Shown here: in pieces, positions 9,202-44,532 of the stretch
Numbering within the stretch: position 1 is the first letter of the stretch
Layout: every line of letters starts with the position of its first letter
DNA from: Wenxinia saemankumensis
GTDB lineage: Bacteria > Pseudomonadota > Alphaproteobacteria > Rhodobacterales > Rhodobacteraceae
NCBI RefSeq assembly: GCF_900141735.1
Contig: NZ_FQYO01000007.1
Coordinates: 62,001-126,000, forward strand
DNA length: 64,000 nt
Direction of reading: 5' to 3'
The notes under the pieces: model-generated
What the model saw: only the letters and a program-made list of their open reading frames with translations
Databases searched by the model: none
What the model was told of the DNA's origin: nothing
Translations under genes and position numbers: made by a program

Positions 9202-10143
9202 TCAGCGCCGGGGCGGCGATCCCCGCCCGGCCCGGCCCTTCGCCAGCCCGGCCGCCCTGGCCCCGACCAGCCCGCCGAGCAGCACCAGGCCCGCCCCGAG
9301 AGCGAAGGTCGGGCCGGGGCGTTCGGCGAAGACGACCCAGCCGGCCAGCGTGGCGAACAGGATGGAGACATGCGAGACCGGCGACAGGACCGTCGCCCGG
9401 GTCGCCCGGTAGGCCCGCAGGAAGCAGATCTGCGCCACCTGCGCCAGGATCCCGATGGCGAGGATGACCCCCCAGGCTCCCGGCGCGAGCGGGGTCCAGA
9501 CGACGGCCGCCGGGATCGCGGTGAAGGCCGTCAGGCCGCCCGTGTAGAACAGCATCAGGACCATCGTCGTCTCGCCCCTCAGGGCCCGGGTCTGGATCGC
9601 GGCCATCGCGCCGAAGCCGACCCCCGCGAAGGCCGCGATCAGGCCCGGGACGGGCACCGGACCGAACCCGGCGCCCGGGGCGACGATCACACCGACGCCC
9701 GCCAGCGTCACCGCGAGGCCCAGCCATTGCGCCCGCACCACCCGCTCGCCCAGCAGCGCGACCGCGAGGCCCATCGCGACGAGGGGCCGGGTGAATCCGA
9801 TGGCGTTGACGATGGCGAGGGGCAGCAGGGTCAGGGCGCTGAAGGTGAGGGTCAGCGCGGCCGCGTTGCAGGCCACGCGGGCCGCGTTCCGCCAGGGCGC
9901 CCCCATCCGGGACAGCTCCGCCCGGCGGCGCCAGACCAGCGGCGCGATCAGGACGAGCCCGATCGCCGCGCGCAGGAAGACCAGCTGAAGGGCAGGGACC
10001 TCCGTCCCCGTCGCCTTGACGAGGACGTTGACGACCGTGACCAGCGTCATGTCCGCCAGCAGCCAGCCGATCCCCGCTGCGGGGTCGTCGCCGGGATCGG
10101 CCCTGTCCGCGGCCCCGTCCGCCCCTCCCGCCCGGGCGGTCAC
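9202..10143 (-). CDS. EamA/DMT-family transporter
   Basis: A 313-aa inner-membrane protein with about ten hydrophobic segments in two EamA repeats (repeat 1 from WLLADMTLVTVVNVLVKATG, repeat 2 from PGLIAAFAGVGFGAMAAIQT). The family exports or imports small metabolites; the substrate is unknown. GTG at 10143 overlaps the stop of the upstream PIG-L gene as GTGA, so it is the third gene of the minus-strand operon ROK regulator - PIG-L - EamA. By context it may move a product of the deacetylase pathway. Confidence 0.85.
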   Translation of the reverse strand: MTARAGGADGAADRADPGDDPAAGIGWLLADMTLVTVVNVLVKATGTEVPALQLVFLRAAIGLVLIAPLVWRRRAELSRMGAPWRNAARVACNAAALTLTFSALTLLPLAIVNAIGFTRPLVAMGLAVALLGERVVRAQWLGLAVTLAGVGVIVAPGAGFGPVPVPGLIAAFAGVGFGAMAAIQTRALRGETTMVLMLFYTGGLTAFTAIPAAVVWTPLAPGAWGVILAIGILAQVAQICFLRAYRATRATVLSPVSHVSILFATLAGWVVFAERPGPTFALGAGLVLLGGLVGARAAGLAKGRAGRGSPPRR

Positions 10144-12494
10144 GCCTCCTGCGCGAGGAGATTGGCCATCAGGCGGAACGCCCCCGGCACCATCCGGTCG
10201 AGCTGGTGGTGCAGGTTCAGGGCGACATGGCTGTGCCGCCCCCGGCCGATCCTGGCGGAGACGAGGGCCCCCTCGAGCGGCGCCTCTCCGGCATCGGACA
10301 TGGCGAGGAGCGGGCGATAGGCGTCGTCCCAGCTCGAGGCGAAGTAGAGGCCGCGCTCCTTGTCCCATCCCTGCCAGTCCGCCGGACCGATGGGGTTGGG
10401 GCGGCGCAGGATCGGGTGATCGGGCTCGAGGATCGTGACCTCGGCCGTCTCGTCCGTCACGCGCCAGCGCAGCGAGGGGGTGCCGACCGTCAGCGGCGCC
10501 GGCGGGATGCGATCCGGGTCCCAGCCCTGGTCGGGCCGCTGGTAGAGCGTCACCAGCGTTCCGCCCTCGCGCACGAATGCGTGCAGCCGCCCGATGGCGA
10601 GGGTGACGTCGGGCCGATTGGCCAGCGCGACGACGCCGACGATGATGGCGGTGAGACCCGACAGGTCCGTATCCGGCTGCAGGCGGTCGATGTCGGTGAC
10701 GTCCAGCCCCATCCGCCGCAGCCACAGGTCCGTGCGGTCGCTGCCGCCGCCGATCCACCCGATGCGCGCGCCCTCGGGCAGCGCGACGTCGAGGTGCAGC
10801 ACCCGGATCCCGGCCGGTGCGCGGCTGCGGATCGGACCAACATGCGGATGCTCGGTCACGCTCTCGCGGATCGCTGGGTGGCCGTCGACGCGCGGGACGA
10901 TCCGTACGAGCCCCGGCTCCGGCGCGGCGGGCGGCACGATCCGTGCCTCGGCCGCCCCTGGGTCGAACGACCATCCCTCGGGCAGATCGGCGCCGAGCGT
11001 CCCCGCCGCGTCGTGGGCGAAGACGATGGGCGGCGCGTCCGCAGCGCCGATCCGGCGCACGAAGGCGTCGGGCGCGGGGTCCAGGCGTGCGATCGGGGCG
11101 AGCTGCCACGGCCGCTCGAGATCCAGCGAGGCCGTCATCTCGCGGCCGTGGGCCGCGAAGGTCAGCGACGCGGCGAGGGGACCGTTCCCGCCGAGCGGCG
11201 ACCATCCCCCGGCGAAGGCGGGGCCGGGCGCCGCGTCCGTCGCGGCCTCCAGCCTGACCGGGCCCTCGCCGTGCGCGGAGATCCCCTCGGGCAGGCGGAG
11301 GGCGAGCCTCGGGGAGAGCGTGCCGGAGGCGAGCGGCGGCGCGAGGTCGAGGCGCAGCTCGGCCGTTCCGCCGGGGCGCATCTCGGGGACCGAGAGGGTC
11401 AGGCGCGGGGCGAGCCCCGTCGCCTCCAGCGCGGCGGCGGCGACCTGCCGGCGCTTCATCGCGACGCGGTGCCGGTTCGCGCGCCCAGTCCTCGGCTCGG
11501 CGCGCTGCAGCGCGGCGTCGGCGGCGGCGAGGGCCACGAGGATCGCGTCGCGGTCGGGAAAGACCGTGCGCGCGGCCTCGCAGGCGGCGTCCGCGTCGCG
11601 CAGGTCGGCGGACGCGGCCGTCTCGACCGCCGCGAGATCGGCGAGCGTCGCGGGCAGCCCCTCGCCGATCCGGCTCTCGGCCCCGCCGCCGACCCGGTGC
11701 AGCGGCCAGTCGAGGGCGGGGTTGTCGTGCCAGCGTCCCATTCCCTGGCTGGCATGGCGGCGGCGCGACCATTCCCCGATGCGCGAGAAATCCGCGCCCG
11801 TCGCCGCCTCGCGCCCGGCGACCCGCTCGCGCAGGGTGGCCTCCGGCGGCGGCACCTCGTCGTCATAGGTCCCCCCGCCACCGCTCCAGGCCGGCAGGTA
11901 GTGCCGCGCGACGGTCCAGGGATCGGCCCCGGTCCGGTGATCCGGATCGGCGGCGAGGCGGATGGCGGTCTCCGCGGCGCGGGTCATGGCGCGGTGGTGG
12001 CCGTGCTGGCCCGGCACGTCGAGGAAGGTCGGCAGCACGATGTCCGGCCGCTCGCGCCGGATCGCGTCGACCAGCCGCCCGACGACGAGGTTCTCGCCCC
12101 ACCGCGCGAAGGTGTCGTCGCCGTCCTTAGAGAAGCCGAAATCGTGGACGGGATCGTCGGGGCCGAAGCCGAGCCAGGCGATGTCGCAATCGAGGACGCG
12201 CGCGGCCTCCTCCATCTCGCGGCTGCGCAGCAGGCCGAGGGCCCGGCCGCGTTCGGGGCCGATCACGTTCTGCCCGCCCTCGCCCCGGGTGGAGCAGGCG
12301 ACGACGACCCGCATCCCCCGGCCGAAGCGGAGCCAGGCCAGCAGGCCGCTATGCTCGTCGTCGGGATGGGCGCCGGTATTCATCATCGTCAGCACCGAGC
12401 CGAGGCGCGACAGCGCGCGATGCAGCCGCAGCAGCGCCGGATCCCCCTCGTCGCGGGCGAGGCGGCCTTGGGGGCTGTCCAAGCGGTCGGTCAT
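10140..12494 (-). CDS. Large cytoplasmic PIG-L family deacetylase
   Basis: A 784-aa protein without signal peptide. The N-terminal 250 residues are a PIG-L/LmbE domain with the zinc and catalytic motif AHPDDE at 42-47 and the second metal motif GQHGHHRA near 158. The family (MshB, BshB, PIG-L) removes acyl groups from N-acyl-glucosamine conjugates. After a helical and beta-sandwich middle, the last 240 residues form a glutamine-amidotransferase/ThuA-like fold (GWIGGGSDRTD, then HAFVREGGTLVTLYQRP). The same architecture is seen in the Tat-exported protein at 20704-23205. Its ATG overlaps the ROK regulator stop (ATGA). A divergent sugar importer lies on the other side. Confidence 0.85.
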   Translation of the reverse strand: MTDRLDSPQGRLARDEGDPALLRLHRALSRLGSVLTMMNTGAHPDDEHSGLLAWLRFGRGMRVVVACSTRGEGGQNVIGPERGRALGLLRSREMEEAARVLDCDIAWLGFGPDDPVHDFGFSKDGDDTFARWGENLVVGRLVDAIRRERPDIVLPTFLDVPGQHGHHRAMTRAAETAIRLAADPDHRTGADPWTVARHYLPAWSGGGGTYDDEVPPPEATLRERVAGREAATGADFSRIGEWSRRRHASQGMGRWHDNPALDWPLHRVGGGAESRIGEGLPATLADLAAVETAASADLRDADAACEAARTVFPDRDAILVALAAADAALQRAEPRTGRANRHRVAMKRRQVAAAALEATGLAPRLTLSVPEMRPGGTAELRLDLAPPLASGTLSPRLALRLPEGISAHGEGPVRLEAATDAAPGPAFAGGWSPLGGNGPLAASLTFAAHGREMTASLDLERPWQLAPIARLDPAPDAFVRRIGAADAPPIVFAHDAAGTLGADLPEGWSFDPGAAEARIVPPAAPEPGLVRIVPRVDGHPAIRESVTEHPHVGPIRSRAPAGIRVLHLDVALPEGARIGWIGGGSDRTDLWLRRMGLDVTDIDRLQPDTDLSGLTAIIVGVVALANRPDVTLAIGRLHAFVREGGTLVTLYQRPDQGWDPDRIPPAPLTVGTPSLRWRVTDETAEVTILEPDHPILRRPNPIGPADWQGWDKERGLYFASSWDDAYRPLLAMSDAGEAPLEGALVSARIGRGRHSHVALNLHHQLDRMVPGAFRLMANLLAQEA

Positions 12495-13648
12495 CTGGGC
12501 GGCTCCGTGGGTTCGGTCCGGGGGGGCGACACCTCGCTGAGTTCGAGGCGCGGGGTGATCGCGTCGTGCATGGGCAGGGCCGCCGCGCCGATGGCGGCGG
12601 CGAAGACGCCACTCTGCCCGCGCATCACCCTCGGCAGGGTCCGGTCGCTGCGCCGCGAGACGCTGGTGCCAAGCCGGAGACGCGAGATGATCGCGTCCAG
12701 CCAGTCCGGGGCGAGCCCGCCGGCCAGCACGATGGTCTGGGGGTCGAGCACGTTCTCGAGGATCGAGATGACGGGGCCGAGATGCGCCGCCGCCTCGTCG
12801 AGCCAGGCGGAGAGGACCGGATCGGCGTCCGGATGGGCGGTGTCGAGCTCTGCCAGGTCGCCCGACCGGCCGGCCGCCAGCAGGCTTTCGCGCAGCGCGT
12901 GGGTCGAGGCGTAGCGCTCGAGGCAGCCGTTCTGGCCGCAGGGGCAGGGCCGGCCCCCGGGGGCGGCGACGACGTGGCCGATCTCGCCGGCATTGCCGTA
13001 GGCCCCCCGCATCAGTGCCCCGGAGGAGATCACGCCGAGACCGATGCCGGTTCCGAAATAGATCACCCCGAACTGCGACAGGTGGAGGTGATCGCCGAGC
13101 AGCGTCTCGCCGATCGCGACGGCGTTCGCGTCGTTCTCGACCACGACCGGGGCGCCGAGGCGCGCGGTCAGCTCGGCGGCCGCGTCCAGCCCGGCCCAGC
13201 CGGGCAGCGTCGTGGGGCCGACGCTGGAGAAGCCCTCGATCTCGAACGGGCCGGGCATGACCACGCCGATCCCCATCAGCCGGCCCTGCTGGTCGGTCGA
13301 GAGCTCTCTCACCAGCGTCTCGATCCGGGGCAGGGCGGCCCCGGGGGACATGTCCGCGACGTCGACCGAGCTCTGCCGCCGGATCTGCCCGGCGAGGTCG
13401 ACGACGACGGCGGTCATCCGGGTCACCGCCAGCTCCATGCCGATGGTGAAGGCACCGTCGGGATTGATCTCGTAGTCGAGGGGCGGCTGGCCGCGTCCCG
13501 CGGCGCTGCGGCGCCCGGCGGCGCGGATCAGCCCCTCTCCGATGAGCTCGTCGAGGATGTTGGTCACCGATTGCGGCGTCAGCTGGCAGAGCCGCGCGAT
13601 CTCGAGCCGGCCGGTCCGCCCGTGCCGGCGCATGAGGTCGAGCACCAC
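12491..13648 (-). CDS. ROK-family transcriptional regulator
   Basis: A 385-aa protein with an N-terminal winged helix (RTGRLEIARLCQLTPQSVTN) and a ROK sugar-binding/kinase-like domain: ENDANAVAIGE, the GAYGNAGEIGHVV histidine motif and zinc motif CPCGQNGCLE. It probably senses the sugar taken up by the divergent importer and represses both directions. The listed start is the first conventional one (GTG 13648), but this removes the conserved helix NREHNRR that precedes the HTH in ROK regulators. The frame is open back to a TAA with no ATG, GTG or TTG. CTG at 13723, with GAGG eight bases upstream, is the likely true start, giving 410 aa. Confidence 0.85.
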   Translation of the reverse strand: MVLDLMRRHGRTGRLEIARLCQLTPQSVTNILDELIGEGLIRAAGRRSAAGRGQPPLDYEINPDGAFTIGMELAVTRMTAVVVDLAGQIRRQSSVDVADMSPGAALPRIETLVRELSTDQQGRLMGIGVVMPGPFEIEGFSSVGPTTLPGWAGLDAAAELTARLGAPVVVENDANAVAIGETLLGDHLHLSQFGVIYFGTGIGLGVISSGALMRGAYGNAGEIGHVVAAPGGRPCPCGQNGCLERYASTHALRESLLAAGRSGDLAELDTAHPDADPVLSAWLDEAAAHLGPVISILENVLDPQTIVLAGGLAPDWLDAIISRLRLGTSVSRRSDRTLPRVMRGQSGVFAAAIGAAALPMHDAITPRLELSEVSPPRTEPTEPPR

Positions 13649-13783
13649 GCGCCGGTTGTGCTCGCGGTTGCGGCCCGGGTTCTTGCCCCGGGGAGTCGGG
13701 CGGGAGGTGTCCTTGGGGGTCAGGATCTGATCCTCGGCAGGCAGGCGTCGTGCATGTCCCCGGAAGGGTGGAACGCGGAAAAG

Positions 13784-13803
13784 AATAAAACAAGATATTT
13801 ATT
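13784..13803. promoter_or_regulatory. AT-rich palindrome in divergent ROK/importer region, probable operator
   Basis: AATAAA-N8-TTTATT lies in a short AT-rich island between the ROK regulator and the divergent binding-protein gene. ROK repressors such as NagC and XylR bind AT-rich inverted repeats of this kind. Its position suits control of both operons. Confidence 0.5.
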
Positions 13804-13923
13804 GTATTGACTCGAATCGACCTCTTCTTCCATGCTTGGCGAACGACGGACCGCCCCCCGAATGGCGGCGACGCTTCCAGCCGGCACCTGCAAGAAGTGC
13901 CGCTTTTCCCAACGGAGGACCCC

Positions 13924-15165
13924 ATGACCAGATTGCACCTGTTGGCCGGTGCCTCGGCCCTCGCCTGCTTCGCCGGATCGGCGCAGGCCGTCGAGATCGA
14001 TTACTGGCAGTACATCTACGACACCCGCGTCGAGGCGATGGACCAGCTCATCGCCGCCTTCGAGGAGGCGAACCCGGACATCACCGTCAACCAGGTGACG
14101 TTCCCCTATGCCGACTACCAGACCCGGATCGTCGCCGCGAACATGGCGGGGCAGGGCCCCGACGTGATGCAGCTCTTCTACGGCTGGGCCGACAAGTTCA
14201 TCGAGGGCGGGCTGATCCAGCCGCTCCCCGAGGACGTGTTCCCGCCCGAGCAGATCGAGGAAGAGTTCTTTCCCATCGTCTCGGCGATGAGCCGCGACGG
14301 CCAGTATTACGGCCTGCCGACGGCCGTCCGCTCGCTCGCGCTGTTCTGGAACAAGGACCTCTTCGCCGAGGCCGGCATCGAGGGTCCGCCCGAGACGCTG
14401 GACGAACTGGTCGAGATCGGCCAGCAGCTGACCCAGACGAACGACGCCGGCAATTTCGAGGTCGTCGGCATGACGCTCGACATGGCCGGGCAGGACCACC
14501 AGTGGTGGCGCGAGGTGCTGGTGCGGCAGATGGGCGGCGAGCCCTATTCCGAGGATTATTCCGAGGTCACCTACGACGACGAGGCCGGGACCGAGGCGCT
14601 GCAGTTCTACACCGACCTCGCCACGGTCCACGGTATCGGCACGCCCGGCTTCATGGACGAGGGGCAGGCCGCGTTCCGCGCCGGCCGCGCCGCGATGACG
14701 ATCGACGGCACTTTCCGCCTCGGCTCGTTCTCGTCGATCGAGGATTTCGAATGGGGCGTGGCCGAGCTTCCGGCCAATGCCGAGGGCGTCCAGTCGAACT
14801 ATGCCAGCTATTTCGCAAACGCGATCGGCTCCGGCGCCGAGGGCGAGGAATACGACGCGGCGGTGAAGTTCCTCGAATACATCTCCTCGGAGGAGGCTAT
14901 GGCCGTCTGGCTGGACGTGGTGGGCGAGCTGCCCGCCCGCCGGGCCGCCGCGATGACGGACGAGAACATGGCCGACCCGATCTACGGGCCCTTCCTCGCC
15001 GCGCTGCCCTACGCCCACACGACGCTCTTCGTCGACGAGGCCGCCCAGCGGCAGGTCGCGATCGACATGACGAACCGTGTCCTGCTCGAGGGGCAGTCCC
15101 CCGAGGACTCGATCGCCGAGGCGGCCGAGGAGGAGCAGGAGATCATCGACGACGCCCGCGACTGA
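13924..15165 (+). CDS. Sugar ABC transporter substrate-binding protein, family 1
   Basis: A 413-aa periplasmic protein with signal peptide MTRLHLLAGASALACFAGSA (cleavage near AQA-VE). It is a typical SBP_bac_1 protein, with a sugar-facing WADKFIEGGLIQPL region, LFWNKDLFAEAGIEGPPETL and AFRAGRAAMTIDGTFRLG. ATG 13924 has CGGAGGA upstream; the longer frame from TTG 13807 overlaps the promoter region. It is first in a seven-gene operon with permeases, lyase, ATPase, ROK kinase and deacetylase, so the ligand is probably the conjugate that those enzymes process (inference). A strong hairpin follows at 15182. Confidence 0.9.
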   Translation: MTRLHLLAGASALACFAGSAQAVEIDYWQYIYDTRVEAMDQLIAAFEEANPDITVNQVTFPYADYQTRIVAANMAGQGPDVMQLFYGWADKFIEGGLIQPLPEDVFPPEQIEEEFFPIVSAMSRDGQYYGLPTAVRSLALFWNKDLFAEAGIEGPPETLDELVEIGQQLTQTNDAGNFEVVGMTLDMAGQDHQWWREVLVRQMGGEPYSEDYSEVTYDDEAGTEALQFYTDLATVHGIGTPGFMDEGQAAFRAGRAAMTIDGTFRLGSFSSIEDFEWGVAELPANAEGVQSNYASYFANAIGSGAEGEEYDAAVKFLEYISSEEAMAVWLDVVGELPARRAAAMTDENMADPIYGPFLAALPYAHTTLFVDEAAQRQVAIDMTNRVLLEGQSPEDSIAEAAEEEQEIIDDARD

Positions 15166-15181
15166 CGCGCACGTCCGAGAT

Positions 15182-15213
15182 GGCGCCGCCCCGCAACTCC
15201 CCGGGGCGGCGCC
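15182..15213 (+). other. Strong hairpin after the binding-protein gene
   Basis: A perfect 12-bp stem, GGCGCCGCCCCG with CGGGGCGGCGCC, around an eight-base loop, 16 bases after the stop. It sits inside the operon rather than at its end, so it is probably an mRNA-stability or attenuation element that raises binding-protein levels. Confidence 0.6.
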
Positions 15214-15270
15214 GCGTCCAACCGGTCGGGCCGGCCCGGGCGGGCACGACCGATCAAGCCGAGAGGGGCG

Positions 15271-16209
15271 ATGACCCATCCGACCGACCATGACACGGTG
15301 CCGACCCGGCCGCTGATGAACCAGCCTCGGCTGTCGATGCGCATGCGCAGCGCGGTCTGGGTCTGGACCTTCCTCGCGGTGCCGCTCGTCTTCTACGTCG
15401 TCATCCGCTTCTACCCGACCTTCAACGCGTTCTGGCTGTCGCTGACGGACTGGGACCTGATGTCGGATGCCGAGTTCATCGGCCTCGAGAACTACCGCGA
15501 CATGTTCGCGGACGACGATTTCTGGAAGACCTTCTGGAACACGTTCGAATACCTGATCTACGGCACGCCCACGTCGCTCGTGATCGCGTTCGTCATCGCC
15601 TACTACCTCGACAAGGTCCGCTTCGCGCACAACTTCCTGCGCGCGCTCTACTTCATGCCCTACATCACGACCGCTGCGGCGATGGCCTGGGTCTGGCGCT
15701 GGTTCTACCAGCCCGCGCCGACCGGCCTCATCAACGGCGTGCTGGGCGAGGCGGGGATCGGCCAGATCGAGTTCCTGAAATCGACCACCTGGGCGCTGCC
15801 CTCGATCATGGTCACCGCGATCTGGGCGGGCCTCGGCTTTCAGATCATCATCTTCATGGCGGGGCTGCGCGCCATTCCCGACACCTATTACGAGGCGGCC
15901 CGGATGGACGGCCTCGGCGAATGGGCGATCCTGCGCAAGATCACGCTTCCGCTGCTCAAGCCGACGATGGTCTTCCTCGTCGTCTTCATCTCCATCGCGT
16001 TCCTGCGGATCTTCGACCAGGTCTACAACATGACGACCAACGATCCCGGAGGGCCGCTCGGATCGACCGAGCCGCTGGTGCTGATGATCTACCAGACGGC
16101 CTTCTCGTCCTACGACATGGGCCAGGCGGCGGCACAGACGGTGGTGCTGTTCACCATCCTGCTCGTCGTGTCGCTGCTGCAGCTCTGGGTGCTGAGGGAG
16201 CGGACATGA
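15271..16209 (+). CDS. Sugar ABC transporter permease (MalF/UgpA-like)
   Basis: A 312-aa permease with about six membrane helices (first WVWTFLAVPLVFYVVIRF) and the MalF-type EAA loop YEAARMDGLGEWAILRKITL. GAGAGGGG precedes ATG 15271. It forms the channel with the next gene, whose start overlaps this stop (ATGA). Confidence 0.9.
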   Translation: MTHPTDHDTVPTRPLMNQPRLSMRMRSAVWVWTFLAVPLVFYVVIRFYPTFNAFWLSLTDWDLMSDAEFIGLENYRDMFADDDFWKTFWNTFEYLIYGTPTSLVIAFVIAYYLDKVRFAHNFLRALYFMPYITTAAAMAWVWRWFYQPAPTGLINGVLGEAGIGQIEFLKSTTWALPSIMVTAIWAGLGFQIIIFMAGLRAIPDTYYEAARMDGLGEWAILRKITLPLLKPTMVFLVVFISIAFLRIFDQVYNMTTNDPGGPLGSTEPLVLMIYQTAFSSYDMGQAAAQTVVLFTILLVVSLLQLWVLRERT

Positions 16210-17057
16210 CCGCCACTGCCGACATCCGCGAGCGCCGGATGCGCGACATCCGCCCGGGCCGGATCATCCGCTGGACAATCCTGTTCATCGGCGGTGTGCT
16301 GATGGTGACGCCGCTGCTCTACATGTTCTCGACCTCGCTCAAGACGCCGGGCCAGATCTACGACCTGCGGCTGATCCCGGCGGCGCCTACGCTGGCGAAC
16401 TACGTCGAGGTGCTGTCGGAGGGCGAGTTCCCGCGCTGGTTCCTCAACTCCTCCATCGTGGCGATCGTGGTGACGGCGTCGAACCTCTTCTTCGACAGCC
16501 TCGTCGGCTACACTCTGGCCAAGTTCCGCTTCCGCGGGCGGCGGCTGATCTTCATCGCGATCCTGTCGACGCTGATGATCCCGACCGAGATGCTGGTGAT
16601 CCCGTGGTACCTGATGAGCGCCCAGTTCGGCTGGCTCGACACCTACTGGGGCATCATGTTCCCCGGCATGACGACCGCCTTCGGCACCTTCCTGATGAAG
16701 CAGTTCTTCGAGACGGTGCCCGACGACTTCCTCGAGGCGGCGCGGATCGACGGCATGAACGAGTTCACCATCTGGTGGAAGATCGCGATGCCGCTGGTGA
16801 CGCCCGCGCTGTCCGCCCTCGCCATCTTCACCTTCCTCGGCAACTGGACGGCGTTCTTCTGGCCGCTGATCGTGACCACCTCGAAGGAGCTCTACACCCT
16901 GCCCATCGGCCTCACGAGCTTCGCCGTCGAGCAGGCGATCCGGTGGGAGATGATCATGACCGGCGCGGCGCTGGCGACGATCCCGACGCTGCTCGTGTTC
17001 CTCGCCCTGCAGCGCTACATCGTGCGCGGCGTCATGCTGGCGGGGCTGAAGGGATGA
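16206..17057 (+). CDS. Sugar ABC transporter permease (MalG/UgpE-like)
   Basis: A 283-aa permease with the EAA loop LEAARIDGMNEFTIWWKIAM followed by PLVTPALSALAIFTFL and a typical C-terminus (FLALQRYIVRGVMLAGLKG). It pairs with the preceding permease. Both of its ends overlap neighbouring genes by four bases (ATGA), so the whole stretch is translationally coupled. Confidence 0.9.
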   Translation: MTATADIRERRMRDIRPGRIIRWTILFIGGVLMVTPLLYMFSTSLKTPGQIYDLRLIPAAPTLANYVEVLSEGEFPRWFLNSSIVAIVVTASNLFFDSLVGYTLAKFRFRGRRLIFIAILSTLMIPTEMLVIPWYLMSAQFGWLDTYWGIMFPGMTTAFGTFLMKQFFETVPDDFLEAARIDGMNEFTIWWKIAMPLVTPALSALAIFTFLGNWTAFFWPLIVTTSKELYTLPIGLTSFAVEQAIRWEMIMTGAALATIPTLLVFLALQRYIVRGVMLAGLKG

Positions 17058-18565
17058 GCCTTTCCGATCCCCGCGCGACAGACGAGACGCGCTTTCCCGA
17101 CCCGGTCTACCGCGACACGGTGCTGGCGCCGCTCTTCGACGGGGCGCGCGCGCACCATGTCGACGGCTTCCGCCGCATCGACCGGGCGCATCTGGTGATG
17201 CTGGCCGAGACGGGCATCGTGACGCCCGGAACCGCCGCCGCCATCGCCGGCGCACTGGAGGCGATCGACAGCGAGGTGGACCCGGCCGGCCTGACCTATA
17301 CCGGCGAGGTCGAGGACTGGTTCTTCCTCGTCGAGGCCGAGCTGAAGAAGCGCGTCGGTCCCGACACGGGCGGCTGGCTGCATACCGGCCGCTCGCGCAA
17401 CGACATCGACCACACGCTCTTCAAGATGTCGCTGAAGGCGCATCTGGACCGCCTGATGGCGCAGGCGCGCGCCGTTCTGGCCGCGCTGATCGGCACCGCC
17501 CGGCGCGAGCGCGGCACGATCATCGTCGCCTATACCCACGGCCAGCCCGCGCAGCCGACGACCCTCGGACATTACCTCGGCGCCGCCATCGAGGTGCTGA
17601 TCCGCGACATCGAACGGCTGGAGACGGCGCGCGCGACCTGCGACCTCTGCTCGATGGGCGCAGCGGCGATCACGACGACCGGCTTTCCCATCGACCGGGC
17701 CCGGATGGCGCATCTGCTCGGCTTCGCGGCGCCGCAGCGGAACTCCTATTCCTGCATCGCCGCCGTCGACTACACGACGGGCGCCTATTCCGCCGTCGAG
17801 CTGCTGTTCCTGCATCTCGGGCGGCTGATCCAGGACTTCCAGACCTGGTCGTCCTTCGAGGTCGGGCAGCTCTACGTGCCGAACGCCTTCGTCCAGATCT
17901 CGTCGATCATGCCGCAGAAGCGCAATCCCGTGCCCATCGAGCACATGCGCCACCTCGCCAGCCAGACGATGGGCCGGGCCCGGACGATGCGGGACATCAT
18001 GCACAACACGCCGTTCACCGACATGAACGACAGCGAGGGCGAGAGCCATTCGGCGGGCTACGAGGCCTTTGCCAGCGGGGGCCGGGTGCTGGAACTGCTC
18101 GCCGCCTTCGTCGCCGCCATGCGGATCGACCCCGCGAAGGTCGACCGCAACATCCGCCGGTCCTGCATCACGATCACCGAACTCGCCGATACCGTGGTCC
18201 GGCGCGAGGGCCTGTCCTTCCGGCAGGCGCACGAGATCGCCGCCGCCACCGCCCGCGCCGTGGTGGCGGAGGAGTCGGACCTGCCCTCGGGCTACGCCGC
18301 CTTCACCGCCGCCTTCGAGCAGGCGACGGGCCGCGCGCCCGGCATGGACGAGGCCGCGTTCCGCGAGGCGGCCTCGCCCGAGCATTTCGTCGCCGTGCGG
18401 GACCGCTTCGGCGGCCCGGCGACCGGACCGATGGACGAGGCGCTGGGCGCCTACGACGCCGCGCTCGCCGGCTTCTCGGCCCGCGCAGACGCCATCGCCG
18501 CCCGCGAGGCGGACGCGGCGGCCGAGCTCGACACAACCTTTCGCGCCCTTTCGGAGGCCCGCTGA
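17054..18565 (+). CDS. Argininosuccinate-lyase-like enzyme of the fumarase/aspartase superfamily
   Basis: A 503-aa protein with the three superfamily regions: TGRSRNDID (ASL-type S-R-N substrate contact), YTHGQPAQPTTLG (Thr-His) and the signature SSIMPQKRNP with the catalytic-loop serine. True argininosuccinate lyases usually have a TGRSRNDQ-like motif, KKNPD after the signature and about 460 aa. Here the Asp after NP is Val and about 40 residues are added, so arginine synthesis is unlikely. The superfamily beta-eliminates fumarate from C-N or C-O linked succinyl groups. It is coupled between permease and ATPase genes of a sugar importer, so it probably cleaves the imported compound into fumarate plus an amine or alcohol (inference). 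Confidence 0.75.
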   Translation: MSLSDPRATDETRFPDPVYRDTVLAPLFDGARAHHVDGFRRIDRAHLVMLAETGIVTPGTAAAIAGALEAIDSEVDPAGLTYTGEVEDWFFLVEAELKKRVGPDTGGWLHTGRSRNDIDHTLFKMSLKAHLDRLMAQARAVLAALIGTARRERGTIIVAYTHGQPAQPTTLGHYLGAAIEVLIRDIERLETARATCDLCSMGAAAITTTGFPIDRARMAHLLGFAAPQRNSYSCIAAVDYTTGAYSAVELLFLHLGRLIQDFQTWSSFEVGQLYVPNAFVQISSIMPQKRNPVPIEHMRHLASQTMGRARTMRDIMHNTPFTDMNDSEGESHSAGYEAFASGGRVLELLAAFVAAMRIDPAKVDRNIRRSCITITELADTVVRREGLSFRQAHEIAAATARAVVAEESDLPSGYAAFTAAFEQATGRAPGMDEAAFREAASPEHFVAVRDRFGGPATGPMDEALGAYDAALAGFSARADAIAAREADAAAELDTTFRALSEAR

Positions 18566-19602
18566 TGGCGACCATCACGCTCGACAAGCTGACCAAGCGC
18601 TTCGGAAAGACGGAGGTCATCCACGGCATCGACCTCGACGTGAAGGACGGCGAGTTCGTCGTCTTCGTCGGCCCGTCCGGCTGCGGCAAGTCGACGACGC
18701 TGCGGATGATCGCGGGGCTGGAAGAGGTGTCGGGCGGCGAGATCCGGATCGGCGGCCGCGTCGTCAACGAGCTCGACCCCAAGAGCCGCAACATCGCGAT
18801 GGTGTTCCAGAACTACGCCATCTACCCGCACATGACGGTGCGCCAGAACATCGGCATCGGCCTCTACACCTCCAAGCTGGAGAAGGGCGAGAAGGCCCGC
18901 CGCGTCGAGGAGGCGGCCCGCATCCTCGGCCTCGATCCCTATCTTGACCGTCGCCCCGCCGCCCTGTCGGGCGGCCAGCGCCAGCGCGTCGCGATGGGCC
19001 GCGCGATGGTGCGCGACCCGGTCGCCTTCCTCTTCGACGAGCCTCTGTCAAATCTCGACGCGCAGCTGCGCGCGCAGATGCGGATCGAGATCAAGGCCCT
19101 GCACCAGCGTCTCGGCGCGACCATCGCCTACGTCACCCACGACCAGGTCGAGGCGATGACGATGGCCGACCGGATCGTCGTCATGCGCGACGGGTACATC
19201 CTGCAGCAGGGCCGGCCGATGGAACTGTACTCGAACCCCGTAGACGTCTTCACCGCGCGGTTCATCGGCACGCCCTCGATGAACGTCCTCCCCGGCCGGA
19301 TGGAGGGCGGCGCCCCCGTCGCCGGAGCGGGCGGGCCGATCCTGATCGGGGTGCGCCCGCAGGATCTGCAGGTCGGCAGGCGCGCGGGCGAGGGCGGGCT
19401 GACCCTGTCCGGCCCCGTCACGGCGGTCGAGCCGCTCGGCCCCGAGACGCTCGTCCATTTCGACGTGGACGGAGAGACCGTGATCGGCAGCGCGCCGGGA
19501 TCCGAGATCCCCGAGGTCGGCAGCCGGATCGAGGCGCATGCCCCCGACTCGGTGATCCACCGCTTCGACGCGGAGACGGAGAAAGCCCTGGGGCCGTCCT
19601 GA
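18565..19602 (+). CDS. Sugar ABC transporter ATP-binding protein (UgpC/MsmK-like)
   Basis: A 345-aa CUT1-type ATPase: Walker [10 protein letters not shown], signature [19 protein letters not shown], Walker [13 protein letters not shown], switch [15 protein letters not shown], then a C-terminal TOBE/regulatory domain from about residue 240. It energises the importer at 13924-17057. TGATG junctions join it to the lyase upstream and the ROK kinase downstream. Confidence 0.9.
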   Translation: MATITLDKLTKRFGKTEVIHGIDLDVKDGEFVVFVGPSGCGKSTTLRMIAGLEEVSGGEIRIGGRVVNELDPKSRNIAMVFQNYAIYPHMTVRQNIGIGLYTSKLEKGEKARRVEEAARILGLDPYLDRRPAALSGGQRQRVAMGRAMVRDPVAFLFDEPLSNLDAQLRAQMRIEIKALHQRLGATIAYVTHDQVEAMTMADRIVVMRDGYILQQGRPMELYSNPVDVFTARFIGTPSMNVLPGRMEGGAPVAGAGGPILIGVRPQDLQVGRRAGEGGLTLSGPVTAVEPLGPETLVHFDVDGETVIGSAPGSEIPEVGSRIEAHAPDSVIHRFDAETEKALGPS

Positions 19603-20654
19603 TGGACGGGGACGCCCCCCCGGTCGGCCTGACCGACCCGGCCTCGGCCGCGCTCGCGAACCTGCTGCGGGGCAGGGCCCTGCGGGATCCGCACCGCAGG
19701 CTGAGGGAAGAGGGCTGGACCGATGGCGAGGGGCGTCTGCGCGCCGATCGCGCGCTGCTCCTCGTCAGCGACATCGGCGGCACGAAGATGCTGACCGCGC
19801 TCTGCGACCTGCGCGGCGGGGTGCTGGCCGAGACGACCGACCCGACCCCGGATGCCGGGGCGCCGGCCCTCGTCGACCGGGTGATCGCCCAGCGGGACGC
19901 GCTGCTGGGACAGATCGGCCGGCCGTGCGCAGACATCGCGGCGGCGGGCCTCGGCGTTCCCGCCTCGATCGACCCCGCGACGGGGCGGCTGCACCGCGGT
20001 CCCAACATCCCCGGGCTCGAGGAAGGGGATCTCGCGGGCGGCTTCGCCGCCGCGCTCGGCCGGCCGGTGGCCATCGAGAACGACGTGAACATGGCCGCGC
20101 TCGGCGAACACTGGCGGGGGGGCACGCGCCGCGCCGACCTCACCGTCTTCATCGCCATCGGAACCGGCATCGGGATGGGCGTGGTCATCGGCGACCGGCT
20201 GCTGCGCGGCGCGACGGGCGCCGCCGGCGAGATCGCGTTCCTCCCGCTCGGCGCCGATCCCGAGGATCCAGCGACGCACGCGATGGGCCCGCTCGAACAC
20301 GCCATCTCCAGCGAGGCGCTGATGCGCGTCTACCGGGCCGCCGGGGGCCGCGCGGACAGCCTGCGCGACGCCTTCGCCCGGCCGGACCCTGCGCTCGACG
20401 AGGTGCTGGACCAGCTGGCGCTCTGGGTCGCGCGGTCCTGCCAGGCCGTCGCGGCCATCCTCGATCCCGAGGCCATCGTCTTCGGCGGCAGCCTCGGCTT
20501 CCGCCCGGAAGTGCTGGGCCGCGTCGAGGCCGTCCTCGCCCGCAGCATGGCCCGGCCCCCGGCCTGCCGCGTCACCGCCCTCGGACCGCGGGCCGCCCTC
20601 GTCGGCGCCGCCCGCGCCGCCCGCACCGCCCTTGCCGCGTCGATACAAGGATAG
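19602..20654 (+). CDS. ROK-family sugar kinase without the zinc motif
   Basis: A 350-aa protein with no DNA-binding domain. The phosphate motif DIGGTK is at 57-62, followed by GLGVPASIDPATGRLH, the catalytic-Asp segment AIENDVNMAALGEH and the second glycine motif AIGTGIGMGVVIG. At the place of the usual GEIGH the sequence is GEIAFLPLG, and no CxCGxxGC zinc motif follows. Both are normally needed for hexosamine/glucose-type ROK kinases, so the substrate may differ or the protein may be a sensor. The first 50 residues are an unusual extension. It overlaps the ATPase gene by TGATG. A role in phosphorylating the released sugar is inferred from context. Confidence 0.75.
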   Translation: MDGDAPPVGLTDPASAALANLLRGRALRDPHRRLREEGWTDGEGRLRADRALLLVSDIGGTKMLTALCDLRGGVLAETTDPTPDAGAPALVDRVIAQRDALLGQIGRPCADIAAAGLGVPASIDPATGRLHRGPNIPGLEEGDLAGGFAAALGRPVAIENDVNMAALGEHWRGGTRRADLTVFIAIGTGIGMGVVIGDRLLRGATGAAGEIAFLPLGADPEDPATHAMGPLEHAISSEALMRVYRAAGGRADSLRDAFARPDPALDEVLDQLALWVARSCQAVAAILDPEAIVFGGSLGFRPEVLGRVEAVLARSMARPPACRVTALGPRAALVGAARAARTALAASIQG

Positions 20655-20703
20655 GCGCCCCGCAACGACCACGACCACGACCCCCCCACAAGGAGACCAG
20701 ACC

Positions 20704-23205
20704 ATGCCCACCATGACACGTCGAACCTTCGTGGCGTCCCTTCCGGCGCTCGCCGCCGCGAAGGGGTCGATCGCCTTCGCCGAACCGATGTCCGCGCTCG
20801 ATCTCATCGCGCAGCAGCGGCGGCAGCCCAGGATCGTCGAGTTGCGCCGCGCGCTCGAACGGCTGACCTCCACGATGACGCTGATGATCACCGGCGCCCA
20901 TCCCGACGACGAGCCGAGCGCGCTGCTCGCCGCGCTGCGCTACCATTACGGCATCCACCCGGTCCTCTTCGTCATCACGCGGGGCGAGGGAGGCCAGAAC
21001 AGCATCGGGCCCGAGCGCAACGCCGCACTCGGCGTGCTGCGGACCCGCGAGATGGAGGAAGCGTCCCGCGCCCTCGACGCCTCGATGATGGTCGGCAGCG
21101 TCGGCCCCGACGATCCGATGCGCGATTTCGGCTTCTCCAAGGATCCGAATGCCACCATTGACCAATGGGGCCGCGAGCGGACGCTGGAGCGGATGGTGCT
21201 CGGCATCCGCATGCACCGCCCCGACGCGATCATGACGCCCTTCCTCGATGTCGGCGGGCAGCACGGCCATCACCGCGCCGTCAACGTCGCCACGTTCGAG
21301 GCGGTCGAGATGGCCGCGGATCCCGAGGCCTATCCCGATCAGCTGACGGGCGACATCACGGTCTGGAACGTGCCGAAGGTCTACCAGCCGGCCTATGGAG
21401 GCGGCGGCGGCGTCTACGACGACGAGACCCCGCCGCCCCCCGCGACGCTGGTCGTGCAGGTGCCCGCGCGCGATCCGGTCACCGGCGCGACCTGGCCGCA
21501 GATCGGGGAATGGTCCCGGTCCTTCCACCTCACGCAAGGCATGGGCAGCTGGCGCGAGGAGCCGCAGACCGAGTGGGAGCTGAACCTCGCCCGGACAGCG
21601 GAGGGCAGCCCGCATGAGGAAGCCGACATCCGGCAGGGCACGCTCTATTCCCTCGGCGCGATCTCCGAGATGGACGGCCTGCCGCCCGGCGCGGCTGACG
21701 CGCTGCGGCGCGCGCAGACGATGGCCGACGAGGCGGTGGAGAGCTACACCGACACCGCCCTCGTGATCGACCGGGTCGCCGCGTTGGCTGATGCAGTCGA
21801 GCTGGCCCTGTCGGCGATGCCAGACGACATGCGCGCCCAGGTCGGCCACCGGCTGGAGCGCAAGCTGCGCGAGGCGGACCAGGCGCTGGCTGTGGCCGTC
21901 GGCCTGTCGGTCCGGGCCTGGACCGAGGGGGACGACATCACCCCGGGCGAAACCGCGACGGTCACCACCGTGATCGACGCGCCCGGCGACGTGACCGTCG
22001 AGGGGGTCGAGGTGATCGCCCGCAGCGGCCTCGCCGTCGAACCGGCGGAGGGCGGCGGAACCGTGTCGGCCCCGGCGGGCGCGGCGCTGACCGATCCGCT
22101 CACGACCGCGTTCGACGTGCTGGGCGGCAACGGGGACGCCTTCGTCCGGGTCAGCGCCACCGTCGCGGGGCGGGATGTGACGCTCGACGTCGATCTGGAG
22201 GACGACCTGCGCGTGCTGCCCGCGGCCTCGGTCCAGGTCTCGCCGGAGGGGGTGCTCTTCAACACCGCGCAGCCCATCGAGCCGGCAGAGATGACGGTCA
22301 CGGTCCAGAACGCGGCGCCGGACGATCTCGACTTCGACCTGCCGGCGGGCTGGTCGATCTCTCCCGCCGGGGAGGGCACGCCGGAATCGCGGACCTATCT
22401 GCTCGCCCCGCCGGAGGATGTGGGGCGCACGCGCATCGTCCTGCAGCCGATGCTGGACGGCGAGCCGGCCTATCAGGTGGACCGGTTCAGCTATCCCCAT
22501 ATCGGCACCTCGGTCGTGCCGAACCGGGTCTCGATCCCCGTCGTCGCGGTCGAGGCGACCCTGCCGGAGGTCCGCCGCGTCGGCTACATCAGCGGCGGCA
22601 ACGACAATGTCGGCACGTGGATGAGCCGGATGGGTCTCGACGTGGTCGACCTGACGCCCGAGCAGGTGGAGCGGGGCGAGTATCGCGATCTGCAGACAAT
22701 CGTGGTGGGCATCTACGCCTTCGGGCGCCGGCCCGACCTCGCCGCCGCGGTGCCGCAGCTCCATGACTGGGTCCGGGGCGGGGGGCACCTCGTGACGCTC
22801 TACCACCGCCCCCGCGACGGCTGGGACCCCGAGACGGTGCCGCCGGAGATGCTGACGATCGGCTCTCCGTCGATCCGCTGGCGAGTCACCGATCCCGATG
22901 CCGAGGTGACGGTCCTCGCCCCCGACCACCCGCTCCTCACCACGCCGAACGCGATCGGTCCCGAGGACTGGGCGAACTGGGACAAGGAGCGGGGCCTCTA
23001 CTTCGCCTCGGACTGGGCACCGGCCTATACGCCGCTGCTCGCGATGAGCGATCCGGGGGAGGAACCGCTGGAGGGCTCTCTGCTGTCGGCGGAGATCGGG
23101 GAGGGGCGGCACACCCATACCTCGCTCATCCTGCATCACCAGCTGGACCAGCTGGTCCCGGGCGCCTTCCGGCTGCTGGCGAACCTCGTCCAGCCGGCAA
23201 GCTGA
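20704..23205 (+). CDS. Tat-exported large PIG-L family deacetylase
   Basis: An 833-aa protein starting MPTMTRRTFVASLPALAAAK, a twin-arginine signal, so a folded, metal-loaded periplasmic enzyme is expected. The PIG-L domain has AHPDDE at 65-70, ITRGEGGQNSIGPERN, and GQHGHHRA. The middle contains beta-sandwich modules, and the C-terminal 240 residues form the same amidotransferase-like domain as the cytoplasmic paralogue at 10140-12494, with long shared blocks such as WDKERGLYFAS. AAGGAGA precedes ATG 20704. It is last in the importer operon. It may deacylate the conjugate before uptake, with the cytoplasmic copy acting afterwards (inference). Confidence 0.85.
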   Translation: MPTMTRRTFVASLPALAAAKGSIAFAEPMSALDLIAQQRRQPRIVELRRALERLTSTMTLMITGAHPDDEPSALLAALRYHYGIHPVLFVITRGEGGQNSIGPERNAALGVLRTREMEEASRALDASMMVGSVGPDDPMRDFGFSKDPNATIDQWGRERTLERMVLGIRMHRPDAIMTPFLDVGGQHGHHRAVNVATFEAVEMAADPEAYPDQLTGDITVWNVPKVYQPAYGGGGGVYDDETPPPPATLVVQVPARDPVTGATWPQIGEWSRSFHLTQGMGSWREEPQTEWELNLARTAEGSPHEEADIRQGTLYSLGAISEMDGLPPGAADALRRAQTMADEAVESYTDTALVIDRVAALADAVELALSAMPDDMRAQVGHRLERKLREADQALAVAVGLSVRAWTEGDDITPGETATVTTVIDAPGDVTVEGVEVIARSGLAVEPAEGGGTVSAPAGAALTDPLTTAFDVLGGNGDAFVRVSATVAGRDVTLDVDLEDDLRVLPAASVQVSPEGVLFNTAQPIEPAEMTVTVQNAAPDDLDFDLPAGWSISPAGEGTPESRTYLLAPPEDVGRTRIVLQPMLDGEPAYQVDRFSYPHIGTSVVPNRVSIPVVAVEATLPEVRRVGYISGGNDNVGTWMSRMGLDVVDLTPEQVERGEYRDLQTIVVGIYAFGRRPDLAAAVPQLHDWVRGGGHLVTLYHRPRDGWDPETVPPEMLTIGSPSIRWRVTDPDAEVTVLAPDHPLLTTPNAIGPEDWANWDKERGLYFASDWAPAYTPLLAMSDPGEEPLEGSLLSAEIGEGRHTHTSLILHHQLDQLVPGAFRLLANLVQPAS

Positions 23206-29665: not shown

Positions 29666-30307
29666 CTATTCCCCGATCAGCGGCACGAACCGCACCGAGC
29701 CGATCCGCTTCTCGTCCCAGCTCGACGGTCCGACGAGGGTCAGCCGCGTCAGCGCCTGACCCCCGGGCGAATCGGGATCGCCCAGGGGCATGACGATCCG
29801 CCCCCCCGGCACGAGCTGGCTGCACAGCGCCTTCGGAACGTGCGGGGCACTGGCCGCGACGAGGATCGCGTCGTAGGGGGCCTCCATCGGCCAGCCCCGC
29901 GTTCCGTCGCCGTGATGGACATGGACGTTGCGCACGCCCTCTTCCCGCAGCCGCTCGGCCGCCTCCTCGGCCAGCCTGCCGATCCTCTCGACGGAATGCA
30001 CCTCCATCGCGATCCGGCCGATCACGGCGGCGGCGTAGCCGGACCCCGTCCCGATCTCGAGCACGCGCGCGTCCTGCCGCAGCTCCGCCGCCTCGATCAT
30101 CGCCGCGACGATGCAGGGCTGCGAGATCGTCTGCTCCTCGCCGATGGGCAGGGCCGCGTCCTCGTAGGCCTGCTGGGCCCGCGATTCGGGCACGAAACGG
30201 TGGCGCGGCACCGCGCGCATCGCCTCGAGGACCGAGGGGTCCGTGATGCCGCGCGCGGCGATCTGCTGCTCCACCATGCGCGCGCGCCTGTCGTCATGCG
30301 TCGTCAT
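29666..30307 (-). CDS. pcm: Protein-L-isoaspartate O-methyltransferase
   Basis: A 213-aa cytosolic SAM-dependent enzyme that methylates isoaspartyl residues in damaged proteins to start their repair. Family marks: MVEQQIAARGITDPSVLEAM, PRHRFVP, the PIGEEQTISQPCIVA segment and SAM motif VLEIGTGSGYAAAV. ATG 30307 is preceded by GGAGGCGACG; the longer frame to 30472 lies inside xfp. It overlaps the xfp end by 14 bases, so it is the last gene of ackA-xfp-pcm. A repair enzyme fits with the stress-type promoter upstream of ackA. Confidence 0.9.
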   Translation of the reverse strand: MTTHDDRRARMVEQQIAARGITDPSVLEAMRAVPRHRFVPESRAQQAYEDAALPIGEEQTISQPCIVAAMIEAAELRQDARVLEIGTGSGYAAAVIGRIAMEVHSVERIGRLAEEAAERLREEGVRNVHVHHGDGTRGWPMEAPYDAILVAASAPHVPKALCSQLVPGGRIVMPLGDPDSPGGQALTRLTLVGPSSWDEKRIGSVRFVPLIGE

Positions 30308-32636: not shown

Positions 32637-33784
32637 GCCTCCTCCCTTGCGATGAGATATCGGGCGTGGCGGGCCATGACGCGCTCCTCCTCCGGGGGGA
32701 CGAGGCGCAGCTCGACCGCGCTGTCCGCAGGGCTGACGACCGGCGCGTGCCGGTCATTCGCCTCCGGATCGAGCACGACCCCCATCCAGCCGAGATCGCC
32801 TGCGATGCGCGCGCGGATGCCCGCCTGCTCCACCCCCGCGCCGCCGGTGAAGACGAGCGCGTCGATCCCGCCGATGGAGACGGCCATCCGCGCGACGGCC
32901 TGTGCCGCCCGGCGGCAATAGAGCGCGATCGCCGCCTCCGCCTCCACGCCGCCGGCCGACGTGATGTCGCGCGGATCGGACGAGAGGCCTGACAGGCCCT
33001 TCAGGCCCGCCCCTGTCCAGAGCAGCTCGGACAGGGCCTCCACCTCCATCCCCTGGCCGAGGGCGTAGAGCATCAGGCCCGGATCGAGAGATCCCGAGCG
33101 CGAGCCCATCATCAGCCCGTCCAGCGGTGTCGCGCCCATCGTCGTGTCGACGCTGACGCCGCCCCGGATCGCGCAGGCGCTTGCCCCGCCGCTGAGGTGG
33201 AGCGAGACGATGCGGTCGGGCGCGGTGTCGGACCGCGCCATGACATGCGCGACCCATTCATGCGACAGCCCGTGGAAGCCGTAGCGGCGCAGCCCCGCGA
33301 ACGGCCCCTCGGCCGGGACCGGCAGTGCGCGGGCAAGAGGCGGCATCGTCCGGTGGAAGGCCGTGTCGAACACTCCGATCTGCCGCCGGCGCGGCCGCTC
33401 CTCTGCCAGAGCCCGCACGAGGGAGAGGTTCACCGGCTGGTGGATCGGCGCCAGCGGGGACAGCGCGCCGAGCCGGGTCATCTCCGGCGCGTCCAGCCAG
33501 ACCGCGTCGGTGGTGGCGCCGCCCCCGTGGACGATGCGGTGCACCGGGACCGCCCCCTCCGCCCGGCCCAGCAGCGACTTCGCCACGGCGGGGAAATCGG
33601 CGGGATCGGGGCCGTCCAGCGTCTCGCACGTGCCGTCCGCGGCACGGATCACGGGGCCCGTTCCGGCGGTCAGGTCGATCTCGGCCGTCCAGCGGGCCTC
33701 GTCCCCTCCGTCGAAGAACGCGGCGGAGAGGCTGGAAGAGCCGGCATTGAGGCAGAGCAGCGGCTGGTGACTCTCATGGGGCAT
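32633..33784 (-). CDS. ackA: Acetate kinase
   Basis: A 383-aa ASKHA-fold kinase converting acetyl-phosphate and ADP to acetate and ATP. Marks: CLNAGSSSLSAAFF at the N-terminus, FDTAFHRTMPP, YGFHGLSHEWV and DTTMGATPLDGLMMGSRSG. The phosphate loop usually written HLGNGAS is HLSGGAS here, and the protein is slightly shorter than the usual 395-400 aa. GGAAAGGA precedes ATG 33784. It is first in ackA-xfp-pcm, with an EcfG-type promoter 22 bases upstream. Confidence 0.9.
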   Translation of the reverse strand: MPHESHQPLLCLNAGSSSLSAAFFDGGDEARWTAEIDLTAGTGPVIRAADGTCETLDGPDPADFPAVAKSLLGRAEGAVPVHRIVHGGGATTDAVWLDAPEMTRLGALSPLAPIHQPVNLSLVRALAEERPRRRQIGVFDTAFHRTMPPLARALPVPAEGPFAGLRRYGFHGLSHEWVAHVMARSDTAPDRIVSLHLSGGASACAIRGGVSVDTTMGATPLDGLMMGSRSGSLDPGLMLYALGQGMEVEALSELLWTGAGLKGLSGLSSDPRDITSAGGVEAEAAIALYCRRAAQAVARMAVSIGGIDALVFTGGAGVEQAGIRARIAGDLGWMGVVLDPEANDRHAPVVSPADSAVELRLVPPEEERVMARHARYLIAREEA

Positions 33785-44324: not shown

Positions 44325-44469
44325 CTCGTGTCCTTTTCGCCTATCACGACCCGGCCGTCTCGCCGGGCCGCGCGGATCGGTCGGCGGGGGCGGGGGCCGC
44401 ATCGCCCCGGCCCCCGCCGTGGTCGGAATGTCCCGCGGCGGCGGCGTTCCCAAGGCAGGGCTGGCCCCC

Positions 44470-44494: not shown

Positions 44495-44532
44495 CGGCGG
44501 GGGAGGCCGTCGAGCGTCGCGGGAAAGCGTCC

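Follow-up and report, generated by a model that had tools for sequence, protein, structure and literature searches.

A conserved alphaproteobacterial locus with an argininosuccinate-lyase-like enzyme and large PIG-L proteins as a candidate scavenging pathway for glucosaminyl-malate-type compounds

We analyzed a 64,000-nucleotide stretch of the 3.57 Mb genome of Wenxinia saemankumensis (Rhodobacteraceae; assembly GCF_900141735.1, contig NZ_FQYO01000007.1, positions 62,001 to 126,000, forward strand), hereafter the window. It holds a divergent locus whose left and right operons read outward from a shared promoter region. The left operon encodes, in order, a ROK regulator, the large PIG-L protein PIG-L1 and an EamA transporter; the right operon encodes a binding protein, two permeases, an argininosuccinate-lyase (ASL)-like enzyme (hereafter the lyase), an ATPase of the ATP-binding cassette (ABC) type, a ROK kinase and a second large PIG-L protein, PIG-L2. 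These genes may together serve to scavenge a glucosaminyl-malate-type compound. Their positions in the window are as follows.

9202..10152, minus strand: EamA (DMT) family exporter, last in the leftward operon (Pfam EamA, 72.4 bits on the enclosing frame)
10143..12494, minus strand: PIG-L1, large PIG-L amidohydrolase (Pfam PIG-L, 65 bits)
12491..13648, minus strand: ROK-family transcriptional regulator, winged helix and ROK domain (Pfam ROK, 166.7 bits)
13924..15165, plus strand: CUT1-type solute-binding protein (Pfam SBP_bac_8, 126.4 bits; SBP_bac_1, 125.5 bits)
15271..16209, plus strand: ABC permease A (Pfam BPD_transp_1, 55 bits)
16194..17057, plus strand: ABC permease B (Pfam BPD_transp_1, 73.3 bits)
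17054..18565, plus strand: argininosuccinate-lyase-like lyase, predicted glucosaminyl-malate lyase (Pfam Lyase_1, 137.9 bits)
18565..19602, plus strand: UgpC/MalK-type ABC ATPase (NF008653, 453.6 bits, over the cut-off of 432)
19602..20654, plus strand: ROK-family sugar kinase, predicted glucosamine kinase (Pfam ROK, 140.6 bits)
20704..23205, plus strand: PIG-L2, large PIG-L paralogue, predicted exported (Pfam PIG-L, 57.4 bits)

The right operon genes overlap or abut from permease A through the ROK kinase, and the PIG-L1 and regulator genes overlap by 4 bp. Upstream of the regulator start at 13648 no ATG, GTG or TTG occurs in the stretch read (to 13798), and homology to the longer regulator of locus L021 extends upstream of that start; the true start, judging from these sequence features, probably lies somewhat upstream. 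A preliminary description of this DNA had listed a ROK regulator, two large PIG-L deacetylases, a CUT1 importer, the lyase and a ROK kinase, and all of these parts are present, but one large PIG-L, at 10143-12494, falls outside the interval that it assigned to the locus. The homology of the solute-binding protein is too general to indicate a ligand. Against TIGR00950 the EamA gene scores 31.5 bits, under the cut-off, and its product could possibly export a released acyl or amino-acid part.

Conservation was followed across 102 loci, i.e. the window, 21 loci from surveyed genomes and the best 80 of 489 relatives among the matches listed. The same order of genes is found again in dozens of loci from Alphaproteobacteria, and the locus is therefore more than a chance assembly. 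By lyase identity (80-82%), the nearest relatives among the matches listed include Tropicimonas, Mesobaculum and an uncultured member of the Rhodobacteraceae. Lyase orthologues were found in 11 of 61 related genomes, in 27 plasmid records and, with the threshold adopted, in 13 of 385 members of the class (12 above 540 bits, one at 235), while a phylum-wide search returned six of 398 genomes at 810 bits or more, all within the window's class, followed by a gap to 318. Automatic clustering of the 102 loci placed the binding protein in 96, PIG-L in 90, the ROK regulator in 82 and EamA in 50; these are undercounts, as the clustering overlooks three genes of the window itself (ATPase, second permease and regulator). 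Profile searches found EamA in 57 loci and PIG-L in 91, with PIG-L divergent and upstream of the lyase operon in 90. Of the 11 lyase-bearing genomes among the 61 relatives, 10 have the PIG-L family – G027 being the sole one lacking it – against 0 of the 50 lyase-free genomes (Fisher test, 1.2e-10, kinship uncorrected). Eight genomes were checked further, G027 and some chosen for PIG-L-poor loci among them, and five carry the family. In three loci of one genus (L044, L048 and L049), lyase and PIG-L are divergent neighbors and a CUT1 importer was not found; Opp-type or other ABC components lie close to the lyase in L048 and L049. A few genes from the lyase, L048 also carries an aromatic amino acid lyase-family gene (L048:2549-4087, 630.6 bits). 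Locus L063 (JAHREI010000008.1), titled Bacillus subtilis, has the same neighbors as the Pseudochrobactrum and Brucellaceae loci, and this record is probably mislabeled or contaminated.

On sequence evidence the lyase is not ArgH, based on the following factors: 1) a separate, typical ArgH is encoded elsewhere in the genome (597 bits); 2) the lyase scores 275.4 bits against the argH model TIGR00838, a narrow miss of the 279.5 cut-off; 3) in a midpoint-rooted tree of 24 rows, from which rows under 350 amino acids or with stops in translation were dropped, 17 lyase-family rows separate from five ArgH rows, each group supported at 100/100; and 4) where the ArgH of this genome has the loop PLAYSKDMQEDKE, the lyase has PFTDMNDSEGE instead. 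An ArgH duplicate was rejected as a candidate on these same grounds of score, tree, loop and separate ArgH. The loop follows L(A/T)Y.KDMQ(E/D)DK in 5/5 ArgH rows and HNTP(F/Y)(T/A)DMND in 17/17 lyase-family rows, and we take the Tyr, Lys and Gln of the ArgH form to bind the arginine part of the substrate. Two distant lyases fall on the ArgH side of the tree, on long branches. It is very improbable that chance has placed a second argininosuccinate lyase, or a C-N lyase of the EDDS type with a non-sugar amine as substrate, in this sugar operon: a score only 4 bits short of the argH cut-off would suit this explanation, as would the name argininosuccinate lyase assigned in 22 of the 27 plasmid records, but the genome has its separate ArgH, the ArgH loop is lost and the lyase adjoins importer genes in most of the 102 loci. 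Given the naming of those 22 records, the whole lyase family is probably misnamed in public databases.

The lyase passes the Pfam Lyase_1 cut-off (137.9 versus 27 bits) with the conserved SSxMPxKxNP motif, and keeps the superfamily motifs HTGRSRND, YTHGQPAQP and SSIMPQKRNP. Fumarate-side residues R113-S114-R115-N116-D117, T161-H162, S283-S284, K289 and N291 are invariant in 45/45 aligned orthologues, as are D323, M324, N325, D326 and E328 of the replacement loop, whose acids would hold a protonated amino group. An AlphaFold2 (AF2) model of the lyase, with a predicted local distance difference test score (pLDDT) of 91.5, matches EDDS lyase (Z 38.1, 2.8 A over 462) and ASL (Z 37.6) in a tie. Because the fumarate-side motifs are kept, the ArgH loop is replaced and the fold is tied between these two enzymes, the lyase probably eliminates fumarate from a different leaving group. 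Compared with ArgH, which shares its fold and catalytic motifs and whose substrate-bound structures give the Z of 37.6, the lyase has its own clade, a replaced arginine-side loop, a sub-cut-off score and a place in a sugar operon. EDDS lyase of Chelativorans sp. BNC1, the top fold match and an ASL homologue with a non-arginine role, is only 26-27% identical to it; in a pairwise alignment with a gap nearby, Asp290 of EDDS lyase corresponds to Val293 and Tyr320 to a residue other than Tyr. The preliminary description had seen an enzyme with the superfamily motifs and without the ASL-specific residues, which agrees with the motifs present and the loop replaced, and of the situation that it regarded as damaging, a lyase acting only on argininosuccinate or complementing an argH mutant in a genome with no separate argH, the genomic half is contradicted by the separate ArgH found here. 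In the L053 region, a distant ASL-like gene (L041, 36% identical) carries the related loop NTAFGDVND and has genes for hydantoinase/oxoprolinase A and B as neighbors; owing to these neighbors it is no guide to the context of the locus lyase, and its region is perhaps another undescribed lyase pathway.

The slot after the ATPase bears on the sugar that the lyase would release. Of the 102 loci, 67 have a PfkB kinase there, 13 a ROK kinase and 0 both; a PfkB gene about 10.7 kb upstream in L047 was left out of this count. Profile searches add three ROK kinases (L020, L051 and L125), and neither type was recognized in 19 loci, some of them short stretches. The ROK kinase of the preliminary description is thus present in the window but not general, filling a slot that PfkB kinases hold in most relatives. 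The motifs DxGGTK and ENDxN/S occur in 13/13 members of the ROK-kinase cluster, window included, and DxGGTK in 0/82 clustered ROK regulators, the window's own regulator standing outside the 82; we assume DxGGTK and the END motif with its catalytic Asp to be the marks of ROK sugar kinases. About 2.8-3.5 kb past the lyase and on the same strand, 10 of the 102 loci carry NagB and five a NagB-II-like SIS protein, with a kinase directly before the deaminase in 13 of these 15 (eight NagB, five NagB-II-like) and none recognized in L094 and L108; three further deaminase genes lie nearby on the opposite strand. Against TIGR00502, five of nine companion NagB genes scanned pass the cut-off of 236.9 and the other four score 218.7-228.9. 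Outside the 102 loci, a Paroceanicella plasmid has a ROK kinase followed by nagB, and a Roseomonas plasmid a different type of ROK kinase (closest to the fructokinase model, sub-cut-off) followed by a SIS deaminase.

NagB over the cut-off is present in five of the 61 genomes, four of them lyase-bearing (Fisher 0.003). NagB-II-like genes, counted at E values of 1e-60 or below and all scoring under the curated cut-off, occur in 15, seven with the lyase and eight without; since such genes are not rare, linkage within the operon outweighs mere presence. One or the other deaminase is found in 10/11 lyase-bearing and 9/50 other genomes (Fisher 9.5e-6, kinship uncorrected). Unrelated kinases and unrelated deaminases in the same place argue for one chemical need, which on the sequence assignments is probably conversion of glucosamine to glucosamine-6-phosphate and on to fructose-6-phosphate. 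The exchange of kinases and the placement of deaminases after them therefore point to glucosamine as the released sugar. Four loci (L058, L088, L089 and L130, with a NagB-II-like deaminase) and two plasmids have a deaminase after the kinase and no neighboring PIG-L. The pathway may have two variants, one marked by the deaminase and the other by PIG-L, and these four loci and two plasmids, as they carry a deaminase, may import an already deacylated or a different conjugate.

These kinases and deaminases also bear on catabolism of an Amadori aspartate (fructosyl-aspartate), in which the lyase would release fumarate and 1-amino-1-deoxyfructose for phosphorylation by the kinase. Two scanned PfkB kinases do match fructoselysine-6-kinase, weakly, at 51 and 62 bits (cut-off 247). 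However, the partner deaminases are of glucosamine-6-phosphate types, four SIS proteins score 267-317 for NagB-II and only 24-35 for fructoselysine-6-phosphate deglycase, and PIG-L would be left with no role, so that we find this route hardly credible.

PIG-L1 consists of a PIG-L domain, a beta-rich middle and a ThuA/GATase1-like C-terminal domain, with no obvious signal peptide. In its AF2 model (pLDDT 91.2), residues 33-283 match MshB (Z 22.6, root-mean-square deviation 3.1 over 233), tied with LnmX (21.8) and followed by BshB (20.3), with deacetylases of chitobiose and of antibiotics also among the matches of this domain. For residues 574-784 the matches are GATase1/ThuA-like chains (Z 17.5-15.7), and the fold search barely covered the middle part (~273-573). 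When PIG-L1 was searched by sequence against the PDB, the one match was weak and irrelevant. Both locus proteins pass the Pfam PIG-L cut-off of 28.2 bits (PIG-L1 at 65, PIG-L2 at 57.4), and the metal site of an HxDD motif with a distant His is in place: H43, P44, D45 and D46 occur in at least 90% of 42 rows, and H164, H166 and H167 in 42/42. PIG-L2 is 42% identical to PIG-L1 and begins with a twin-arginine-type N-terminus, MTRRTFVASLPALAAAKG. Such an N-terminus also occurs on one of two PIG-L copies in a Devosia locus (L132:138-2693), and it is possible, from this signal-like sequence, that this type is an exported version; a genome of the same genus (G001) has a single copy only, of the PIG-L1 type. 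Separate from the lyase locus, the window contains a third PIG-L gene of ordinary size (40504-41466, minus strand, 68.6 bits), near two glycosyltransferase open reading frames at 42283-43281 and 43278-44657.

According to a review, every LmbE-like enzyme known by 2014 has an N-acetyl- or N-acylglucosamine core as its substrate, with BshB acting on N-acetylglucosamine (GlcNAc)-malate and Bca on bacillithiol conjugates (PMC4101496). By analogy, fold and context suggest that the locus PIG-L may be a BshB/Bca-like hydrolase. The BshB/Bca and MshB/Mca enzymes, whose substrates are acylated or acetylated on the nitrogen of a glucosamine that is linked to malate or inositol, have the PIG-L fold and HPDD zinc motif in common with the locus PIG-Ls, which differ in being mostly ~780-840 amino acids long, in bearing two extra domains and in lying within an import locus.

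Combining a PIG-L that would act on N-acylglucosamine, a lyase with a fumarate leaving group, and a kinase and deaminase calling for a glucosamine product leads to glucosaminyl-malate. This core of bacillithiol is, to our knowledge, the one familiar natural compound meeting all three demands. In bacillithiol the malate is L-malate, O-linked at C2, the arrangement needed by fumarase-type elimination. From the gene identities, their conservation, linkage and motifs we infer the following substrate and reactions. The substrate would be an N-acylated glucosamine with L-malate on its anomeric oxygen, as in bacillithiol or its precursor GlcNAc-malate, taken up by the ABC importer under control of the ROK regulator. 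The PIG-L hydrolase would remove the acyl group, either acetyl or, if the substrate is bacillithiol, cysteine. The lyase would then eliminate fumarate by cutting the C-O bond on the malate side, freeing glucosamine, which a ROK or PfkB kinase would convert to glucosamine-6-phosphate; from this, NagB or NagB-II, encoded within the operon or at another place, would produce fructose-6-phosphate and ammonia. Were bacillithiol itself the substrate, PIG-L would be a cysteine-releasing amidase and the adjacent EamA protein a cysteine exporter. The closing steps – kinase, glucosamine-6-phosphate, deaminase – are those of GlcNAc and glucosamine catabolism (NagA-NagB, NagB-II), whereas here deacylation is proposed to precede phosphorylation and the sugar to be freed by a fumarate-releasing lyase. 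Elsewhere in the window (30294-33784, minus strand), phosphoketolase and acetate kinase genes with a 4 bp overlap could consume fructose-6-phosphate.

BshC is absent from the window genome, in which respect it differs from the bacillithiol systems, and was detected in 3/14 control genomes; the compound would therefore be scavenged from outside. Endogenous bacillithiol synthesis was rejected for lack of BshC in this genome. We put the probability that the locus serves to scavenge a compound of the glucosaminyl-malate type at roughly one half. The order of steps anticipated in the preliminary description (deacylation, fumarate elimination, phosphorylation) gains backing from the co-occurrence of PIG-L and lyase, the exchange of kinases and the deaminases after the kinase. 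In its outline that model has good support, and it can be narrowed to a conjugate of glucosamine. Of the two substrates named there, a GlcNAc-malate type is favored over an Amadori aspartate because of the glucosamine-6-phosphate deaminases and of PIG-L acting on N-acylglucosamine.

A lyase cutting a C-N bond would also release glucosamine together with fumarate, from N-(2-deoxyglucos-2-yl)-aspartate (the Heyns compound of fructose and aspartate) or another glucosamine N-aspartate. The two enzymes closest in structure, EDDS lyase and ASL, both act by cleaving N-substituted aspartates, the product would suit the kinase and deaminase, and the PIG-L-free loci, six with a deaminase, would be explained; yet a Heyns aspartate offers no job for the PIG-L that is usually there (91/102 loci, 10/11 genomes), and we hold this version to be improbable. 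Another conjugate of glucosamine with a succinyl-type group, e.g. a piece of a natural product or surface polysaccharide, is unlikely but deserves rather more weight: the genomic evidence fits any acylated glucosamine with a fumarate-yielding group, and the PIG-L fold matches include LnmX, chitobiose deacetylase and antibiotic deacetylases. It requires, on the other hand, an unnamed compound across many soil and marine habitats, and we know of no common natural example of such a conjugate. It is very likely that one of the three forms of the model that release fumarate and glucosamine is correct.

Several observations weigh against the glucosaminyl-malate interpretation. No sequence feature favors malate over aspartate. 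On the PIG-L side, PIG-L1 scores 24.9 against BshB2 (cut-off 195.25) and also fails the MshB and Mca cut-offs; GalB, a PIG-L-fold relative among its matches, is a hydratase; and the family has Q163 where BshB, by motif spacing alone, has Arg109, a residue that docking suggests to contact the substrate (PMC4101496). PIG-L is missing from 11 of the 102 loci, six on short or cut records, with L025, L058, L088, L089 and L130 lacking it within at least 8 kb read upstream; from 4/7 plasmid regions read (Paroceanicella, Roseomonas, Terrarubrum and Shinella), of which the Terrarubrum and Shinella regions have neither kinase type; and from everywhere in genomes G027, G267 and G262 (70% complete). As for the deaminases, only 15/102 loci have one in the operon; for the companion SIS genes NagB-II is the best family in 5/5 scanned, at 266.7-317.2 against an NF046059 cut-off of 430; genome G013 has the lyase and neither deaminase; and the only NagB of the window genome lies on the same contig 54 kb from PIG-L1, in a different sugar cluster that also holds a GatZ-like gene.

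It has been suggested that bacillithiol and N-methyl-bacillithiol are perhaps the most widespread low-molecular-weight thiols (PMC6282198). In the open-access literature searched, represented mostly by titles and abstract openings, we found no microbial breakdown route for the glucosaminyl-malate core, nor did the gene combination of this locus appear in the literature searched. Tentatively, this may be the first catabolic pathway for a bacillithiol-type compound, and one in which the lyase would cleave a glycosidic linkage by malate-side fumarate elimination, leaving a free hemiacetal and using no glycoside hydrolase. Through the deaminase linkage the substrate becomes directly testable, with a compound already known as a precursor of bacillithiol. 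A gene set conserved across many bacteria from soil and sea probably imports and trims a glucosamine-malate compound and splits it into fumarate and glucosamine; if true, this would constitute an unrecognized breakdown route by which bacillithiol-type molecules are used as food.

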